IMG/VR virus record: IMGVR_UViG_3300031857_001332
Span: 1-24,375 of that record
Length of the DNA: 24,375 nt
Strand: one strand, 5' to 3'
From: a virus
The position numbers and the translations under genes were made by a program. Positions 7,031 to 24,095 of the stretch are shown piece by piece. The first letter of the stretch is position 1. Every line of letters begins with the position of its first letter. The notes beneath the pieces were generated by a model. The model did no database searches. It was given only the letters and a program-made list of their open reading frames with translations, and was not told the origin of the DNA.

Positions 7031-8623
7031 CTAGAACCTAGCTTGTTCTTCTACCCTAATAACTCTCCTTTGAACATCATTAATCTCTGACACCCTAACT
7101 ATTAATGGTTGGTTTACTCTATTGCCTGACTCATCAAATTGTGTGGAGTCCTGACTTCTTTGTGGTATTGGTTGAGCTGCTGGGTTAACTCCGCCACCTG
7201 TATTAATATCTCTTATTCCCCCACCGCTTGAACCACTTGGAGCCGATCCCGGATTGAACCTAGCTGCTAAAATCTTAGCTACTTGGGCAGCCGCAAATAT
7301 ACCAGCAGCAGCAGCAGCCGCAATTTTAAAGCCAGGAGGTGCAGTTGCAAAAGCTGATAAGGTAGCACGTGTTCCATCGATAGCCGCTTGACTTGCTTGG
7401 AATGCTTTGTTAACATTAAAAGCCTTTTTCTTAATTTCTAATTGACGCCTTTCGTCCCCTTCAGCAGCGTTTAACTGACCTTGAAAGAATAAGTCTGATA
7501 ATTCCTTAGCAGCCGCTATTGAGTCTTTTTCTATTTGTAGCTTAGTTTCCTCTTTAGTTCTTACTTTAACTTCAGCTTTTTTATCAGCTTCTTCTTGTGC
7601 CTGAGCTGACTCAGATAATCTATTTGCTAGTAGTTGGGCTTCCTGTTCATTATAAACCTTTACATAATCAACCCTCTTTTCAAGGTTCATTTTATCTAGT
7701 TCATCCTGTGCCCTCTGTTCAAAGTCTGCTTCTTCTTTAGCTTGGTCTTTTGCGTTCTTCCATGCTTTATACTTTTCGTCTATTTTCTTTTGCTCATAAG
7801 CATACCATTTATCATAGGACTCTTTATTCCTTTTCTCTATATCTTTCTTTTCCTCAATGTCTATAATCTTTCTTTCGGTAGTAGCTGCCTTTAACGCTGC
7901 TGTTGACTCTGTTAATTGCTTCTTTTCTTTTTCTGTTAATTCCTTACCTGACCTTATTGTTAATAGTAATTGATTTAAAATAGCCGTGTTAGTGTCAATG
8001 ATTGCTTGCTGTTTAGCCCTCTCAAATTCAACCGTACTTTTACCTGCTGCCTTTGCTTCCTTACCTAACCTGTCATACTCTGCGCTTTGAGCTGATAGAG
8101 CCTCTTTAGAATCTTCAGCCATCTTTATAGCCTTCTCACCCATCTCATCTAAAGCAGAGTTTGTAAGTCCTATGTTATCTGTTAACCAAGTTATGCCGTC
8201 ACCAATGGCTGAAATAATATCTCCAACAAACTGAAGTGATTTAGCTAAAATTCCTGAGCCTTTAGATAGTTCGTTAAAGTTTTGTACTAAGTACATTATT
8301 CCCTCAACGATTAAGAATATAGGAATAGCCTTCATTGCAGCTCCTAAACCTTTTAACGCTGTGCCTAATTTACCGGGGTCAGCATCAAGTAAACCTTGTT
8401 TAAATAAGCTCATTGAGTTATTTAACTTCTCAATTCCTGAGCCTTTTAAACTTTGGGTTTCGTCTTTTAAATCTTCTAACTTATCAGTTAACTCCGCTAC
8501 TCGTTTAGCAGCTTGGCCGTCACCATTTAGGGCTAAGGCTTTCATTTCCTTTAGCTCCTTTTTGATCGCTGATAACGCATTAACATCAGCGTTAACTTTT
8601 ATATTTACTGCTACATCAGCCAT
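7031..8623 (-). CDS. Tail tape measure protein
   Basis: This 530-residue protein is expected to set tail length and be ejected with DNA. It is rich in long charged helices (about 10-65 and 160-400) that should form coiled coils. A hydrophobic segment with PIFLIVEGIMYLV (about 101-113) is followed by further amphipathic helices, resembling the membrane-active part of tape measures. The C-terminal third has an Ala-rich stretch (about 430-455) and then a Gly/Ser/Pro linker. The gene is directly downstream of the frameshifted tail chaperone, the classical position. At 530 residues it is short, implying a tail of roughly 80 nm by the usual 0.15 nm per residue. Its start overlaps the 55-residue gene by 8 bases. 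Confidence 0.85.
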   Translation of the reverse strand: MADVAVNIKVNADVNALSAIKKELKEMKALALNGDGQAAKRVAELTDKLEDLKDETQSLKGSGIEKLNNSMSLFKQGLLDADPGKLGTALKGLGAAMKAIPIFLIVEGIMYLVQNFNELSKGSGILAKSLQFVGDIISAIGDGITWLTDNIGLTNSALDEMGEKAIKMAEDSKEALSAQSAEYDRLGKEAKAAGKSTVEFERAKQQAIIDTNTAILNQLLLTIRSGKELTEKEKKQLTESTAALKAATTERKIIDIEEKKDIEKRNKESYDKWYAYEQKKIDEKYKAWKNAKDQAKEEADFEQRAQDELDKMNLEKRVDYVKVYNEQEAQLLANRLSESAQAQEEADKKAEVKVRTKEETKLQIEKDSIAAAKELSDLFFQGQLNAAEGDERRQLEIKKKAFNVNKAFQASQAAIDGTRATLSAFATAPPGFKIAAAAAAGIFAAAQVAKILAARFNPGSAPSGSSGGGIRDINTGGGVNPAAQPIPQRSQDSTQFDESGNRVNQPLIVRVSEINDVQRRVIRVEEQARF

Positions 8624-8783
8624 TTTCTTCTGCTTCCTTTAGCCATTCATCACTCTCAGTTCCTTTTATAAAACCGCTAATAATCATAATGGAGTTTAAC
8701 TTCATCTTTATATAAGGTAATACAGTAATGTTCAACTGTATATTATCATCCTGTAAGCCCTGTGTTATATCTACCGTACTCAT
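8616..8783 (-). CDS. Small protein between tail chaperone and tape measure
   Basis: A 55-codon frame starts with ATG at 8783 (MSTVDITQGLQDDNIQLN) and ends with TGA at 8616. It overlaps the end of the chaperone reading frame by 38 bases and the tape measure start by 8. It fills an otherwise empty gap of about 120 bases. The sequence is a balanced soluble protein: a short polar N-terminus, a hydrophobic centre (VLPYIKMKLNSIMIISGF) and an acidic helix ending EWLKEAEENG. I do not recognise a family. Support comes from tight coupling on both sides and protein-like composition. It may be a tail assembly helper. Confidence 0.6.
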   Translation of the reverse strand: MSTVDITQGLQDDNIQLNITVLPYIKMKLNSIMIISGFIKGTESDEWLKEAEENG

Positions 8784-9512
8784 AAAATTCGTATAATTTT
8801 TTATTTTCTATTTCAAAACTCCTGTGTGTTAATGTTAGCACAAAGTTGGTTTGCATTACTTGTTCAATCCTTGTTACGTCCCCTTTTGCTAGGCAGTATA
8901 TGTAGGCGTACCATCCCCACTTTTTAACCTTAGCAGCCTCCGCCAATAAGGTATTCTTTTCTGCTTCTGTTTCTGGTTCATCTCCATCTTCAGTATCTGA
9001 AGTTGAAAATATACCGCTATGGTCTGAATACAGTTTCTTTCGATATTGCAAAAAAAAACAACCGTCCCATAAACCTGACCTACATTAACCTTATCCCTAA
9101 ATATGCTAGCTCTCTTTTCTGAAGTGATCGTGTCATAAGGTAAACTGTTATCCCTATAAAATACCCCCAAGATATTATGTAAGTTATTGATTGGATCCTC
9201 AAAGTATTGTTCTAAGTCAATCCACTCACCTACTGAAAAAGAACTCATCTTAACCATGTGGTAAGTAGTATCGTCTATCGTTAGTACTTCTTCAAAGTCT
9301 TTATCACTTGGTAGTTCATCACACCATCCTAAAGCTGCTACAATCCTATTAAGAGATTGCATATCGTACTTTCTTATTTCCTCTGTATCTTCATTGATTA
9401 GAATTGAGATAATCTCTAAAGCCCTAGATTTACTTTCTAAAGGTATTGAGTTAATTTCTTGGAACTGACTTACTGTAACTTCATTCCAACTGTCTGGTAC
9501 TTTAATTATCAT
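8746..9512 (-). CDS. Tail assembly chaperone, -1 frameshift fusion (gpGT-like)
   Basis: The product of reading the 9512 frame to about codon 153 and then shifting -1 on the T-run at 9050-9058 would have about 255 residues. The second frame (to 8746) lacks any start codon upstream other than a TTG inside the run. Its sequence looks genuine: an acidic linker (DTEDGDEPETEAEK), then a compact helical domain containing KKWGWYAYIYCLAKGD and a Phe/Tyr-rich end. Position directly upstream of the tape measure is where lambda-type G/GT chaperones lie; these bind the tape measure and recruit tube subunits. Either the shift is programmed, or the run length is a sequence error and one full-length gene exists. 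I favour programmed shifting because the heptamer is canonical and in the right phase. Confidence 0.7.
8889..9512 (-). CDS. Tail assembly chaperone, zero-frame product (gpG-like)
   Basis: The unshifted frame gives 207 residues. The first 153 form the chaperone N-terminal domain, starting IIKVPDSWNEVTVSQF, acidic and helical, with RALEIISILINED and a DLEQYFED segment. The remaining 53 residues after the T-run are basic and irregular (for example MNQKQKQKRIPYWRRLLRL), unlike the first part, as expected when the alternative frame is the conserved one. In lambda-type systems the short form is made in excess of the fusion. Start ATG 9512 overlaps the preceding gene stop by 4 bases. Confidence 0.7.
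   Translation of the reverse strand: MIIKVPDSWNEVTVSQFQEINSIPLESKSRALEIISILINEDTEEIRKYDMQSLNRIVAALGWCDELPSDKDFEEVLTIDDTTYHMVKMSSFSVGEWIDLEQYFEDPINNLHNILGVFYRDNSLPYDTITSEKRASIFRDKVNVGQVYGTVVFFCNIERNCIQTIAVYFQLQILKMEMNQKQKQKRIPYWRRLLRLKSGDGTPTYTA
9050..9058 (-). promoter_or_regulatory. -1 ribosomal slippery site
   Basis: Nine T (U in mRNA) lie at 9058-9050. In the zero frame the reading is GTT TTT TTT TGC, so 9057-9051 is the heptamer T TTT TTT in X XXY YYZ phase. Slipping back by one gives TTT TTT TTG CAA and enters the conserved downstream frame. I did not identify a convincing downstream stem-loop by eye. Confidence 0.65.
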
Positions 9513-18485: not shown

Positions 18486-18793
18486 TAGAAGTATTTAATA
18501 TCAATACTTAACTCACTCCCCTCAATCTTTCGGTCTGGTTTGTAAAAACTTACTACCCTTTGACCTTCCTTAGTTTTGTTATCAATAATAAAATGCTCAC
18601 AAACTTCATCCTCTACTATCATTATCTTCTTGAACCTCCAAGTGTTACGCTTAGCTAAGTGTTCAATGAACTTATCGTTATAACCTAGCTCCTTTAGTTT
18701 CTTTCTAAAGATACCTTCCTTTTGCTTCATTATCTCATTAGCAATCCTATCGACCTCGTTCTGTATGTTTGGCTGTTCTTCTGTAATGTTCAT
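18485..18793 (-). CDS. Hypothetical phage protein (102 aa)
   Basis: This is a 102-residue charged protein, not recognised. Helices (NEVDRIANEIMKQKEGIFRKK then FIEHLAKRN) lead into a beta-rich end with KIMIVEDEVCEHFIIDNKT and VVSFYKPDRKIEGSELSIDI. It sits between the GT25-like gene (4-base overlap) and the sigma-like gene (a TAATG overlap). Its coupling to the sigma-like gene makes a partner or regulator of that factor conceivable, but nothing in the sequence proves it. Confidence 0.55.
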   Translation of the reverse strand: MNITEEQPNIQNEVDRIANEIMKQKEGIFRKKLKELGYNDKFIEHLAKRNTWRFKKIMIVEDEVCEHFIIDNKTKEGQRVVSFYKPDRKIEGSELSIDIKYF

Positions 18794-19362
18794 AGTAGCT
18801 TACTTTTATCTAAATGCTCATCGTTGTACTTGGTGTGATTCTTTGCGTTATCGCTGTAACCATCCCTTTGATGAGCTATGTATTTAGCTGTTACAAATAT
18901 ACTTAAATTTTGTTTACTTAACCATCTATCATAGTGGTTAATTCCATCCCATGTTAATAACTTATCATAGCTGTTAGCATTTACAATATAGAAGTGTAAG
19001 CCACAGAATTTACTTATCTTATCCCAATACTCATTGTGCTTTGTTGTTCCCCCTCTATTATAAACGCCTCCCATTAATATATCCCAACTGTCTGGCAAAT
19101 TATCTAAACACTTATTAAAGTATTCAATAGTCTTTTCCTTAGCCTGAAATACTATATCATCTTCCATGATACAAATGTACGGCAGTCCCTGTTCCTTAGC
19201 TAACTTAATACAGTTAGTATGAGCTTGGCCTATTCCCTGTTCTGGTTTTAAGTGAGGAATCCCATCTATAACCATAGGCTTTAATCCAATCCACTTTACT
19301 TCCTCTTTAAAGAGTTCGTATCTATCTGTACGTTGGGGTAGGTTTATAACGCAGCTAACCAT
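18790..19362 (-). CDS. GT25-family glycosyltransferase
   Basis: This is a 190-residue transferase of the GT25 type (LPS beta-galactosyltransferase and collagen galactosyltransferase group). An INLPQRTDR motif at 6-14 is the classic N-terminus. GIGQAHTNC at about 43-51 is the Gly-X3-His segment, and YICIMEDDIVF at 62-72 holds the acidic metal-binding residues. A C-terminal GLHFYIVNANSYDKL block is typical of the family. There is no membrane segment, so it should be cytoplasmic. It is last of the six transferase genes. The sugar donor and acceptor cannot be read from the sequence. Confidence 0.8.
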   Translation of the reverse strand: MVSCVINLPQRTDRYELFKEEVKWIGLKPMVIDGIPHLKPEQGIGQAHTNCIKLAKEQGLPYICIMEDDIVFQAKEKTIEYFNKCLDNLPDSWDILMGGVYNRGGTTKHNEYWDKISKFCGLHFYIVNANSYDKLLTWDGINHYDRWLSKQNLSIFVTAKYIAHQRDGYSDNAKNHTKYNDEHLDKSKLL

Positions 19363-19996
19363 GTAATAAATTATGAATGTGTTTCATTGCCCAAACGTCT
19401 TTAGTCCTATCTAAATCATCGCTCTTACAACGGTAGTGGTAAAGATAAGGGTTCTTCATTCTTTGATCATGTGAGCTGTTATAAGGAAATACATCCCATC
19501 TCGCTGCATCCGTTGGGTGAACGCCTGCTCTCTCTAAATAAACCCCTATTAAACAGTCTTCAGAGTCTGTAGGGTAGTCATCAATAGTTCTTAATATATT
19601 AACTAGATCGGTAGATAAAACAAAACCGCATCCAGATGCAAAGCCTCCGCCTAACTTACCGTTGTAAACTTTTGTTTTTGGTAGAGTAGATATATATTCT
19701 TTTAACTTTTGCTTATTAACGTAACTTGATGCGTTGGTTCTAAATATATAATCATAAGCACAGTTAGAATCAAATATCCAATCTAAAGCTAACTTAAACC
19801 TGTAGTTGTTCATATTGGCTTCCTGTGGACACTTAACATATAAGTCTTTACCATATTGTTTGAACTCATTGCCTGAGTAGTAATATATTGTATCTACCCC
19901 CTCAACATCTATTGAATCCCAAGTTTCCTTTTGTCCCTTGATTATTTTATCAAAGGGTGGTATATGGGTGGCTTGCACCATTATTAAAATCTTCAT
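19355..19996 (-). CDS. GT31/fringe-like glycosyltransferase
   Basis: I chose ATG 19996 (MKILIMVQATHIPPF), 22 bases after the previous stop, over a start 48 bases earlier that overlaps the previous gene. The result is 213 residues. Features like galactosyl/fringe-type GT-A enzymes are GQKETWDS at 21-28, YDYIFRTNASSYV at 81-93, GGGFASGCGFVLS near 116-128, and EDCLIGVYL at 146-154, the family's catalytic acidic motif. The usual DxD after the FRT segment is replaced by NASS, as in some bacterial relatives. No membrane anchor is present, unlike eukaryotic members. It overlaps the GT25 gene by 8 bases. Confidence 0.6.
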   Translation of the reverse strand: MKILIMVQATHIPPFDKIIKGQKETWDSIDVEGVDTIYYYSGNEFKQYGKDLYVKCPQEANMNNYRFKLALDWIFDSNCAYDYIFRTNASSYVNKQKLKEYISTLPKTKVYNGKLGGGFASGCGFVLSTDLVNILRTIDDYPTDSEDCLIGVYLERAGVHPTDAARWDVFPYNSSHDQRMKNPYLYHYRCKSDDLDRTKDVWAMKHIHNLLHG

Positions 19997-20018
19997 ATTA
20001 TTATCCAATCTTTTTTTG

Positions 20019-20756
20019 TCATAATTTTCCGTATACTGATTCAAATAGTTTTAAGAACTTAGGTAGCTTTTCTTCATGCTTTACATTTACATTCTCACAG
20101 TGAGCATCTATCATTTGACCTTCAGGTGTAATCATTCCATTGCCACGATCTGTTCTACCTAATGCGTAACAAGTACCCGGCTGTCTACCTCTTAATACAT
20201 TTGTAATAGGTAAGCCTGAAGCCTTTAATCTTTTAGTTAATAAATCCCAGTCATAGTTCCACCACGTTTCCCAATCTTCTTTGTATGGAGTCCCTAACCA
20301 ATCAGCATCACGTTTAAAATCCGCTACACTATTCTCAGTTAGTAACATTACCTTTTGCCATTTATCCGCAGTCATTCCAATATATCCCATTGGATAAAAA
20401 GAGTAGTCCGTTAAGTCATGGCCGTAACTTGTAATCTCATCCATGTTAGGATGCCAGTAATCAGATAGTGGAAGTAAATCCATATCACTAATCATTAAAT
20501 ACTTATCAGGTTGGAACCCAAAGAAACGTGCAGCGTATAACCTTGATGCCTGTGATATTGTTTCCTGTCTAATCCCTTCCATCTTAGGAACTACTACCGT
20601 GTAATCACTTTTAATATTAGCCCTATCTACGTCATCAGTAATCATTGTGCATACTGACCAACCGTAAGATTTCCAAGCCTTATAAATATAAGGGGAATAA
20701 AACCAATAGTCTGGGTTGTTATTTGTGCTTACTACTATAATTTTCTCGTACTCCAT
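20019..20756 (-). CDS. GT-A-type glycosyltransferase-like protein
   Basis: This 245-residue protein starts with a strand (KIIVVSTNNNPDYWFY). The nucleotide-binding strand-loop contains KYLMISDMDLLPLSDYW at about 85-101, whose DMD is the likely metal-binding motif. A later WWNYDWDLL segment and AHCENVN near the end are typical of sugar-acceptor parts of these enzymes. There is no signal peptide or membrane helix. It is in the transferase operon, overlapping the 61-residue gene by 38 bases. The family number is uncertain and the acceptor unknown. Confidence 0.6.
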   Translation of the reverse strand: MEYEKIIVVSTNNNPDYWFYSPYIYKAWKSYGWSVCTMITDDVDRANIKSDYTVVVPKMEGIRQETISQASRLYAARFFGFQPDKYLMISDMDLLPLSDYWHPNMDEITSYGHDLTDYSFYPMGYIGMTADKWQKVMLLTENSVADFKRDADWLGTPYKEDWETWWNYDWDLLTKRLKASGLPITNVLRGRQPGTCYALGRTDRGNGMITPEGQMIDAHCENVNVKHEEKLPKFLKLFESVYGKL

Positions 20757-20904
20757 TTATTTCACCGTTTATAATTGTTATTAATATTTCATTACCTAGC
20801 TCATCCTTAATAGTTAGTAGATGGCTTATGTCAGTTGAATGCTCTAAATATATTACCTGAGTATTAGCGTGTATTCCATTTATGTTTACAATGCTATGAT
20901 TCAT
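20719..20904 (-). CDS. Small beta-rich protein in transferase operon (61 aa)
   Basis: This is a 61-residue frame starting at 20904, overlapping the stop of the transferase upstream by 11 bases and the next transferase by 38. It is beta-rich (HSIVNINGIHANTQVIYL, then LTIKDELGNEILITII) with no membrane segment or known motif. Composition is protein-like and the frame links two genes that would otherwise be about 140 bases apart, so I accept it, though it could be spurious. Confidence 0.55.
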   Translation of the reverse strand: MNHSIVNINGIHANTQVIYLEHSTDISHLLTIKDELGNEILITIINGEINGVRENYSSKHK

Positions 20905-21745
20905 TTACCCAATAAAATATGTTAGGATATTTCTTTTCTAAAGATAATAAATCTTCGTAATCATTCCAATACTTTCTAAGGAATTTAAACAAAGCAGTTT
21001 CGTACCAGCCACTTGCTCCAATGTGACCGCAAATAGTATTTGTTTCTTCTGGTATGTTTAAGTCTAAATAAGTAGGTACTTCATTATGCCAATCATTTAA
21101 GAATGTGTTAGCCATTCCTAACAAGTAGTGCTGAGTTATTGATTCACTTCCTTTGTTTGCCCATGCCGGATATACTGTTTCATTTAAAAAAGTTTGATCG
21201 GCTCCCTTTCTTTTATAATCAATGTGTTGGTTAAGTTGCAATAGTTTATCCCAACTGTCTGGCATTCTCAAAGTCCACGTATCAGTCTTTATTCCTATCA
21301 TGCCTCCAAGTAAAGGAATGTTATGTGATACACTGTCTGTAATAGCGTGCATGGCACTACCTTTGTTTAACCAGTACTGAACGCATTGAGCTTCTTTCTT
21401 AGTGGTTGGGCTGTCTAAGTCTCTACAAAGTACATGAGTGAATTTAGGCTTATCCCACTCTTTGCCACCTTTGTTTAAATAAACGGGTTTTAATCTCCAA
21501 AGCATTGCCTTGCATAAAGGCTCAGGTTCGTTAACATAAACTTCTAAATCCTTTATCCCATCAAATAATTCCTTAAACGCTTCGTAGGTTTCTTTATCAG
21601 TATTTAATACCGTAGTCCATTCAGGATAAACTATTCTATTCATCCTAATAGAAATCATTAAGCCTCTTAAATAGCTGTTAAAATCAAAACAATTATCTTG
21701 ACGTTCTTTATTGTAACCAAATAGTGCGTAACTAATAGCTTTCAT
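20894..21745 (-). CDS. GT-A-type glycosyltransferase-like protein
   Basis: This is a 283-residue soluble protein. The N-terminal MKAISYALFGYNKERQD start is followed by a Rossmann-like region (YPEWTTVLNTDKETYEAF). FTHVLCRDLDSPTTKKEAQ (about 102-120) contains RDLDS, the likely metal/nucleotide-binding acidic motif. After it come HAITDSVSHN and GGMIGIKT (about 147-154), a pattern of acceptor-side loops in small GT-A enzymes. This group is found in capsule and phage gene clusters. It overlaps the GT2 gene by 4 bases and the 61-residue gene by 11. Confidence 0.6.
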   Translation of the reverse strand: MKAISYALFGYNKERQDNCFDFNSYLRGLMISIRMNRIVYPEWTTVLNTDKETYEAFKELFDGIKDLEVYVNEPEPLCKAMLWRLKPVYLNKGGKEWDKPKFTHVLCRDLDSPTTKKEAQCVQYWLNKGSAMHAITDSVSHNIPLLGGMIGIKTDTWTLRMPDSWDKLLQLNQHIDYKRKGADQTFLNETVYPAWANKGSESITQHYLLGMANTFLNDWHNEVPTYLDLNIPEETNTICGHIGASGWYETALFKFLRKYWNDYEDLLSLEKKYPNIFYWVNES

Positions 21746-22311
21746 TTGTTGCTAATATAATCATAATAATACAATATTTTATCTATGTAAACTTCTTTCT
21801 TAAGAAGTTCTGACTTTAAAAGTCTTTGTGAATATTCTGAATCCTCACCAAAATCTTTGTCAGGAAACTTAACAGCCTTAGCTACTTCACTCTTAACCAC
21901 GTTTAAATGGTTCGTGTTTCGCTCATACTTAATTGGATTGGTAGTTGTTTTCCATTCAGAGTATTTAATGCTATGCTCAAATAACTCAGGGATTCCCCCG
22001 TCGATGGTTATCTCACCCCTCAAAGATAAACAGTCTGGTTTACTTTCAAGTGCTTTTAAAATGGTTTTAATATAATCCTTAGCTATTCTATCGTCACTAT
22101 CAATAAAGCATAAGTACTCACCTTTAGCCCAACTTAGTAACTCGTTTCTGTAATGTCCTATTGATTTTTCCCCATTGTTTAAATAAGGGTAAACCTCTAC
22201 CACATCATGCTTACCGTAACCTATTTGTGAGTTAATATCATCGTGTAATAGTTGGAACTTCTTATGATGTTTCTCGTGGATAGGAATTAATATACTTAAA
22301 AATTCGCTCAT
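21742..22311 (-). CDS. GT2-family glycosyltransferase
   Basis: This is a 189-residue compact GT-A enzyme of family 2. FLSILIPIHEK opens the Rossmann-like part. GHYRNELLSWAKGEYLCFI with DSDDRI (71-76) is the classical RN...A-G-E-Y-x-F-x-D-S-D-D signature that binds the divalent metal and nucleotide-sugar. There is no C-terminal membrane domain, in contrast to polymerising GT2 enzymes. It is shorter than typical (about 250 or more), suggesting a minimal catalytic domain. It overlaps genes on both sides by 4 bases. Confidence 0.8.
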   Translation of the reverse strand: MSEFLSILIPIHEKHHKKFQLLHDDINSQIGYGKHDVVEVYPYLNNGEKSIGHYRNELLSWAKGEYLCFIDSDDRIAKDYIKTILKALESKPDCLSLRGEITIDGGIPELFEHSIKYSEWKTTTNPIKYERNTNHLNVVKSEVAKAVKFPDKDFGEDSEYSQRLLKSELLKKEVYIDKILYYYDYISNK

Positions 22312-22679
22312 TTTATTTCTAATTCCTCTCCAGTTAAGGTAAAATAAAGGTTTTGTAATTGGTGTACGTATTCTATCTTATATTCATCTATAATCCACCC
22401 CTCATCGTTTCCTGCATCTAAGTAAAATCTATGTTCAGTCCAAATAAAACTACCTTTAGAAAATGAGTTTTCGAACCCTTTAGTTGGATTTTTAGGTTTC
22501 ATAAACCCAAACTTTATCAACCATTCTTCGGTTAATGGGATGGGTTCTATGTGCATTTGTACCATGTCTTTTTTATCTAAAGACTCACAAACAGCCCCAT
22601 CATAATCAAACCATAACACCCTAACTGGTACAGTATCAACTTGTACTAAATTACCAATCCTTAATTCATTTGCTTTCAT
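22308..22679 (-). CDS. Conserved small phage protein (123 aa), unknown function
   Basis: This is a 123-residue protein starting MKANELRIGNLV, with EPIPLTEEWLIKFGF and a C-terminal YVHQLQNLYFTLTGEELE. I know this pattern as a widespread small protein of Bacteroidetes phages and prophages, with no established function. It has no catalytic or membrane motif. It lies between two transferase genes with 4-base overlaps on each side, so it is co-translated with them here, although in other phages it occurs without them. Confidence 0.75.
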   Translation of the reverse strand: MKANELRIGNLVQVDTVPVRVLWFDYDGAVCESLDKKDMVQMHIEPIPLTEEWLIKFGFMKPKNPTKGFENSFSKGSFIWTEHRFYLDAGNDEGWIIDEYKIEYVHQLQNLYFTLTGEELEIK

Positions 22680-23371
22680 AGTCCAAAGTTAATAGCTCTA
22701 CGTTTGTTAAATAGTTCCTTATCGTAATCCCAAGCTAATTGATTCTTTTGGTAAAGACCATCATCCCTTAAAGAAGTTGGATGCTGACAAGCCGGGTGAT
22801 CGTGCCTGAATAAAACATCAGGGCTTTTAATTAACTTACCTAGCATCTTAGCCACCTCAGTTGCTTCGTTATCACAATAGAAACTTTTATACTCAGGATG
22901 GTAAATTGTTTGTGTTCTATCCCAATAATTTATACCTAGTATCTCCATTGTGTTTATACGTGGTTGGCTAGAGTCATAATACCATAAAGAGGCATCTAGG
23001 CTATTAGGCATAGCTTCTCTTATAATTGAATCCCAACCTTGTTTAACACAGGTTTGGTCATCGCTTAAACTAACCACAATATCCCAATATTCCATTTGAC
23101 TAAAGATTAATAAATCTCTATTAATGGCATGGATTTTAGACTTGCTAGCTCCGTAATAAATGTGAGGTTCTTTTAAAAGTTCTCTTAATTTTAAAGTAAA
23201 CTCATGGCCACAAAGCTCATCGTCAGTATCTAAACTAATTAACCACTTAATCCTTGATGGGTTATTAGCTAAATCTTTAGCCTTTCTTAGAGCTTCAAGG
23301 GCTTGACTAGGTCTGTTTCTAGTAGTTAGTTTAACAACTATCATTTTCTCTATCAAGCCTTTATATTCCAT
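22676..23371 (-). CDS. GT2-like glycosyltransferase
   Basis: This is a 231-residue protein with a GT-A layout: IVVKLTTRNRPSQALEALRK at the N-terminus, IKWLISLDTDDEL (41-53, the first acidic motif), and then WDIVVSLSDDQ (96-106) followed by QGWDSIIREAM (111-121). This pair of acidic loops is common in transferase-like genes of phages. I used ATG 23371; a TTG at 23380 extends the frame by three codons, and an internal Met at residue 10 is also a possible start. It is the first transferase of the block and follows the HNH gene by about 25 bases. Confidence 0.7.
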   Translation of the reverse strand: MEYKGLIEKMIVVKLTTRNRPSQALEALRKAKDLANNPSRIKWLISLDTDDELCGHEFTLKLRELLKEPHIYYGASKSKIHAINRDLLIFSQMEYWDIVVSLSDDQTCVKQGWDSIIREAMPNSLDASLWYYDSSQPRINTMEILGINYWDRTQTIYHPEYKSFYCDNEATEVAKMLGKLIKSPDVLFRHDHPACQHPTSLRDDGLYQKNQLAWDYDKELFNKRRAINFGL

Positions 23372-23396
23372 TGAGTTCAAAATTAGTTATTTTTTT

Positions 23397-24095
23397 TTAT
23401 CTGTTATTATTATTTATTAACACAGCTCTGTTCTTTTCTCGCATTGCTTCACGCTCCTTTAAGTTCATATCATGTAGAAATGTTTTAATCTTAGCCTTTC
23501 GTTTCTTTTTTAGCTTATACCTATCTACTACTTTAACCTTATTCTTTTTAACTTTAATAGGCGTATAAGAATAGTGTTTAGGTTCGTTTGTTTTTAATCT
23601 CTTAGCTTTCTTTTGTGGTTTAGTGTGAACGTCTTTATGGCATTGCTTACATAGAATCTGGATATCGGACTCTAGTTCATTCATAAATCTAACATAGGTT
23701 AAATGGTGGCCGTGTAATTCAACCCCACTTATAGAGCAAATCTCGCATTTATTACCCCTATCTAGTTTAATCTTGTTTCTAAAGTTAATCCACTTGGCCG
23801 ATTTTAGATATTCATTGTAGGCTTTTTTCCTATCTGAATGATACGTTTTAGATTTTAACACTCGGCTTTTAACAGGTAGCTTATCTTCTCTATAAATAGA
23901 TGAGCCAATTCTGTTATACTCTTTTATTACAAAGATTGAAATCTTTTTTTTAGACACAATATCATTTAGATTCTCTAGTATGATATACTGATTTACTATG
24001 TCTTTATGTTTTAGACTTAATAATTCAGCTTTGTGAATCATGGTTATCACTTTAACCATCCGTTTTATTCCTGTCTTGTATGATACTGTGTTCAT
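23397..24095 (-). CDS. HNH endonuclease
   Basis: I take ATG 24095 (232 residues). A start further upstream (24158) would add 21 mostly Phe/Leu residues, which is an artefact of the T-rich leader. The HNH domain is at about 97-160: YLKSAKWINFRNKIKLDRG leads in; Cys117 and Cys120, then HGHHL (128-132), then Cys149, Cys152, His153 and His157 make a zinc-HNH nuclease. A long basic tail (about 160-220, many Lys) may bind DNA. HNH genes near terminase often help packaging; this one is separated from it by the transferase block. It could also be a homing-type nuclease. Confidence 0.8.
   Translation of the reverse strand: MNTVSYKTGIKRMVKVITMIHKAELLSLKHKDIVNQYIILENLNDIVSKKKISIFVIKEYNRIGSSIYREDKLPVKSRVLKSKTYHSDRKKAYNEYLKSAKWINFRNKIKLDRGNKCEICSISGVELHGHHLTYVRFMNELESDIQILCKQCHKDVHTKPQKKAKRLKTNEPKHYSYTPIKVKKNKVKVVDRYKLKKKRKAKIKTFLHDMNLKEREAMREKNRAVLINNNNR

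Follow-up and report, generated by a model that had tools for sequence, protein, structure and literature searches.

We begin with the window, that is, the whole stretch of viral DNA that was analysed (IMG/VR record IMGVR_UViG_3300031857_001332, positions 1 to 24,375; 24,375 nucleotides). On its minus strand lies a gene that is split between two reading frames, with an N-terminal (N) half in the zero frame and a C-terminal (C) half in the -1 frame (Table 1). The zero-frame open reading frame (ORF; 9512-8889, minus strand, 207 aa) crosses a run of nine Ts (T9) after 154 codons, and the first start candidate of the -1-frame ORF is a TTG that overlaps the same run. The coordinates, the run length and the phase had been given in a preliminary description of this DNA, and all of them are correct when the ORFs and the run are re-read from the sequence. 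A single T9 is not unusual in an AT-rich window such as this one, where 6 T8 matches are observed and 7.9 are expected from shuffles; this junction is more than chance because it is conserved across relatives. There may be a further ORF of about 55 codons (window 8620-8800, minus strand), which would begin within the last part of the C half and extend as far as the start of the probable tape measure gene.

Table 1. The split gene, its junction and the gene that follows it in the window.
Feature	Position	Strand	Basis
N-terminal half, zero frame, 154 codons, last codons TTT TTT	9051..9512	-	ORF; common to all relatives; pLDDT 93.5 when folded alone
T9 slip run, zero-frame reading GTT TTT TTT TGC	9050..9058	-	Sequence; T9-T11 in the corresponding position of 139/139 loci with a -1-frame C half
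In-phase heptamer T TTT TTT within the run (present in any T9, in any phase)	9051..9057	-	Sequence
C-terminal half, -1 frame (TTG CAA TAT CGA ...), stop included	8746..9051	-	ORF; C halves of relatives align in the -1 frame; natural in-frame fusions have a homologous C part
Zero-frame tail past the run, 53 codons + stop, end of the unshifted product	8889..9050	-	ORF; tail length varies among relatives
Next gene, probable tape measure protein, 530 aa	7031..8623	-	Weak match, PHROG phrog_3336, E 0.0018

A frame break shared by 139 loci

Two independent metagenome contigs (L001 and L002) carry the identical T9 in the same gene. In L003, a relative of 31% identity, the run at this position is T10 and the C half is again in the -1 frame; when fused, its translation and that of the window align straight through the junction. 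A profile built from the window gene and L003 gives 80 loci (for the wider profile, A3, the best 80 of at least 490 relatives), and the C half is in the -1 frame in 73 of the 73 loci where both halves can be located, the window included. Profile HMMs of the N and C halves find 134 loci with a -1-frame C half, every junction being T9, T10 or T11, and three loci from Bacteroidota MAGs and two more distant loci in Bacteroidota genomes show the same arrangement. The collection holds 139 loci with a -1-frame C half, some of them near copies, in 48 clusters at 70% identity, taken from viral contigs, Bacteroidota genomes and one cultured Nonlabens phage. In this phage (P12024L) the same T9 is present and the gene is annotated as two ORFs, P12024L_40 and P12024L_41. 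Queries with L003 and other relatives find P12024S/L, while a tblastn search of 50,697 phage records with the fused protein of the window gives no match, and a first profile scan of genome contigs (A2 alignment) returned no relatives. One locus (L143, 1851-2553) has a further frame break inside its N half besides the T9, for which error and decay are both possible.

A frame break conserved across homologues is one of the features expected of transcriptional slippage. The programmed -1 shift at the T run, giving an N-C fusion, that the preliminary description proposed is supported by all 139 loci, and from this comparison of sequences we take recoding at T9 to be real beyond reasonable doubt. 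Homopolymers are error-prone, and a sequencing or assembly error, or a gene in decay, might be thought to produce such a break. We give this explanation practically no weight: 139 loci, which come from many assemblies and include a cultured phage, show the same break, both halves are under protein-level constraint, and an error at the T9 is refuted by its conservation.

The constraint is seen in the substitutions between related loci, counted in each half's own frame. Codon position 3 takes 55% of them in the N half, 55% in the C half beyond the overlap and 44% within the overlap; both halves evolve as proteins, each in its own frame. The product of the second frame had been described as looking like a real chaperone domain and the zero-frame tail as not doing so, which agrees with a residue conservation of 0.70 in the C half versus 0.53 in the tail. 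Among relatives the zero-frame tail ranges from 18 to 88 codons, and tails in the third frame are short after the run, with a median of 2 codons. Neither length is used as a signal here. The long zero-frame tails are likely a by-product of the acidic linker composition, and the short third-frame tails are dropped, as the immediate stop TTTTTTATG is also found in most T7-family loci (described below) and probably follows from residue motifs.

The constancy of the break also bears on the idea of a phase-variable (contingency) gene, in which replication slippage would switch the C half on and off. Homopolymers do mutate, and T10 and T11 variants exist, but the C half is in the -1 frame in all 139 run-bearing loci, with none in frame through the T run. 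Moreover, length and phase are uniform within 33 of the 34 multi-member clusters, and even in the remaining one the -1 relation is kept. We regard a phase-variable gene as very improbable.

Run length and codon phase

The next question is which property of the run is held by selection. Among the 139 loci, 125 junctions are T9, 12 are T10 and 2 are T11, and none has eight Ts or fewer. If the Ts beyond the in-phase heptamer are counted on its upstream (u) and downstream (d) sides, the pairs are (0,2), (1,1), (2,0) or longer ones, with a sum that is always at least 2; when u and d are paired at random over the 48 clusters, the sum reaches at least 2 throughout in 0 of 100,000 shuffles, a figure that overstates independence as the clusters are related. 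For the same reason the tree is a better guide than the shuffles, and it needs at least 8 phase changes, several of them between well-supported sisters (e.g., L018/L115 and L079/L076). The preliminary description had taken the phase T TTT TTT as a feature of the site and proposed aligning relatives to see if run and phase are conserved. The run is indeed conserved; the phase is not, since a total length of at least nine is kept while all three phases of the run occur. Outside the junctions such runs are rare in these loci: the remaining 430 kb of coding strand contains 3 T9 runs, and 27% of the Phe codons found elsewhere in the genes are TTC.

An A or T run of about nine or more at the junction, whose length is kept independently of phase, is what transcriptional slippage leads one to expect, and both features are found. 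What a ribosomal slip leads one to expect is found in part: the in-phase X XXY YYZ heptamer is present (T TTT TTT, 9057-9051; 139 of 139 loci, as in any T9), but the constraint in the T9 family is not limited to a heptamer of fixed phase. Since any T9 holds one in-phase T TTT TTT, the heptamer alone cannot separate the two mechanisms. A conserved length with a free phase is, as we read these alignments, the signature of transcriptional slippage, and it argues for slippage by the polymerase rather than for a ribosomal slip of the lambda type.

In-frame fusions and a sister family

In a wide scan, 25 loci among the matches listed have N and C in one unbroken frame, and no long T run at the junction (the longest is a T5, at one locus). 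Fused relatives with no slippery site had been named in advance as something that would refute a programmed shift. Such relatives do exist, but the run is absent from them; with fusions lacking the run and split genes carrying it, the frame break and the T run go together, and the link between them is strengthened. A 293-aa ORF in Flavobacterium phage 23T (L087, 3713-4594) resembles a remote in-frame fusion of both halves with no T run; it was first set aside as a chance match, and with the 1.5e-5 later obtained by the N profile it is too weak to count.

A more distant sister family is likewise built of these two halves, with the C half in the -1 frame (hhalign probability 95.8%, E 7e-9, 224 columns; loci L177, L178 and L182-L216). 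Of 399 genomes sampled within a single Bacteroidota family, 90 contain it, a frequency that suggests a widespread prophage or tail-like element. Its junction reads CAT (once TAT) TTT TTT, followed by A or rarely T, and the run is T7 in 31 and T8 in 4 of the 35 intact loci read (a few of them duplicates), always in one phase. This, in our view, is the pattern that selection on a ribosomal heptamer produces, and it is not the pattern of the window's family. At two loci of the T7 family (L192 and L214) the sequence suddenly ceases to resemble the others immediately ahead of the heptamer and contains stops, which looks like an interruption of the gene at that point.

Polymerase or ribosome

With a probability of about 0.72, we propose that programmed transcriptional slippage lets one gene give two proteins. 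The host RNA polymerase would transcribe the T9 and, in part of the mRNAs, the U run would realign with the gain of one U (or the loss of two). Ordinary translation of the slipped mRNAs would join the N half to the -1-frame C half in a protein of about 255 aa, and the unslipped mRNAs would give the N half with its unconserved tail (207 aa). RNA polymerase holds a hybrid of 9-10 bp (PMC5009743), and A or T runs of nine are prone to slippage in bacteria (PMC1088944; PMC5009743); nine is also the length at which selection acts against A or T runs within coding regions, as seen in a large proportion of bacterial genomes (PMC1088944).

Alternatively, the ribosome may be the slipping machine, with two tRNA-Phe moving back one base at T TTT TTT in some translations, in the style of lambda G/GT. 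Slips of this kind are established in tail chaperones (PMC5009743), the distant T7 family looks exactly like such a site, and with the in-phase heptamer in every member the slip could occur at the same place. It leaves unexplained, though, the two extra Ts that are always present and complementary on both sides of the heptamer: a T9 has no more in-phase double-slip registers than a T7, and no T7, T8 or mixed heptamer is found in the 139 loci. The RNA around the run bears on the same alternative. In the window the RNA downstream of the run is predicted to fold slightly more stably than shuffled sequence (z -1.81), as a stimulator might, and the upstream stretch is not. This is not conserved. 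Over 79 clusters (90% identity) no conserved RNA structure is found near the T9, the mean z values of -0.03 upstream and -0.12 downstream being shuffle-like, and few Shine-Dalgarno (SD)-like cores (7 over the 79 clusters) occur within 25 bases upstream of it. An upstream or downstream stimulator is thus not seen as a family feature, and Rfam and tRNA searches of the window return nothing. Some phage frameshifts need no stimulator (PMC5009743). Taking the two sides together, we judge a purely ribosomal shift the main rival, a possible but rather unlikely explanation.

Both mechanisms might also act at the site; the length constraint would then come from the polymerase, and slippage by the ribosome would raise the yield. 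Each T9 carries both signals, and both may occur at one site (PMC5009743), but nothing in the sequence requires the ribosomal part, and we hold this combination to be improbable.

The protein and its possible role

The family corresponds to phrog_32199/38404, whose function is unassigned in PHROG, and Pfam gives no meaningful match for it. One natural fusion, L090, is predicted with a pLDDT of 92.7; the alignment used for it (A5) spread the N halves badly and the model is still confident. In this model one helix (159-174) spans the junction region. Sequence and fold searches of the PDB with the natural N-C fusion and the window's N half matched no family, a result that leaves room for a relative, and all significant matches in a viral library are uncharacterised or unnamed phage proteins.

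The preliminary description called the gene a tail assembly chaperone placed just before the tape measure, as in lambda. In the window the split gene is directly upstream of the probable tape measure gene, itself recognised by a weak match; among the relatives examined, P12024L included, the gene lies between terminase and neck-type genes, most often beside terminase, and in P12024L the tape measure is about 6 kb further on. The name itself agrees with the G/GT-like arrangement and finds no counterpart in fold matches or in the unnamed family. An N product and a -1 fusion would come from one locus here as in lambda G/GT, a likeness of genetic arrangement only. By analogy a tail-chaperone role is plausible; the arguments for it are the G/GT-like gene logic and where the gene lies in the window, and homology is not among them. 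If the analogy holds, the pair would probably act in tail assembly, the N product being the more abundant of the two and the fusion a rarer linker.

Comparison with known systems

In lambda, G/GT is made by a -1 ribosomal frameshift (Xu, Hendrix and Duda 2004; PMC5009743). The likeness lies in a short N product and an N-C fusion made by a -1 shift in the head-tail gene block, and, for the window, in the place next to a (here probable) tape measure gene. Unlike lambda, the T9 family conserves at least nine Ts in any phase rather than a fixed heptamer, matches no known chaperone in sequence or fold, adjoins terminase in most relatives examined, and includes in-frame fusions.

The nearest parallel for a change of mechanism is dnaX, where Thermus thermophilus uses polymerase slippage at nine A/T and E. 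coli uses ribosomal slippage (PMC5009743); homologous genes slip by a different mechanism in each lineage, and we propose the same for the T9 and T7 families. Thermus dnaX differs in that the slip gives the shorter product and the gene is that of a cellular DNA polymerase. Longer fused variants made by polymerase slippage are known from Citrobacter rodentium tssM1, at an A11 in a gene of a tail-like apparatus where both variants are needed (PMC4256274), and from Shigella spa13/mxiE (PMC5009743). These genes are precedents for slippage in secretion machines, but tssM1 has an A run, and tssM1 and spa13/mxiE are single genes and not a family-wide phage site. IS elements, some expressed through slippage at 9A/9T (PMC1088944), are alike in being mobile-element genes with nine-base runs, and differ in encoding transposases instead of virion assembly proteins.

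On balance we lean to the reading that phages of Bacteroidota make one homologous two-domain assembly protein by three routes, namely polymerase slippage at T9-T11, a ribosomal slip at a fixed T7 and in-frame fusion. If this is true, RNA polymerase and not the ribosome would set the product ratio in the largest group. Frame-shifted tail chaperones have so far been treated as a ribosomal phenomenon, and the open-access literature describes their recoding as ribosomal (-1, -2 or +1). We found no report of transcriptional slippage in a tail-chaperone gene in the open-access literature searched, subscription journals being mostly outside it, and the T9 family would be the first such case there for a G/GT-like gene pair. 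A large and widespread phage family with apparent polymerase slippage, ribosomal-type and fused relatives would offer a natural experiment on how one recoding mechanism replaces another. As a practical rule, gene callers will split such genes, as happened in Nonlabens phage P12024L.

Two further features of the window lie away from the split gene. A block of genes on the minus strand (18790-23380) includes several glycosyltransferase-like proteins (GT25, GT2 and galactosyltransferase-like), which is unexpected on a short phage contig. An HNH-like ORF carries a second nine-base run at its 3' end (23390-23398), which is A9 when read on the coding strand.
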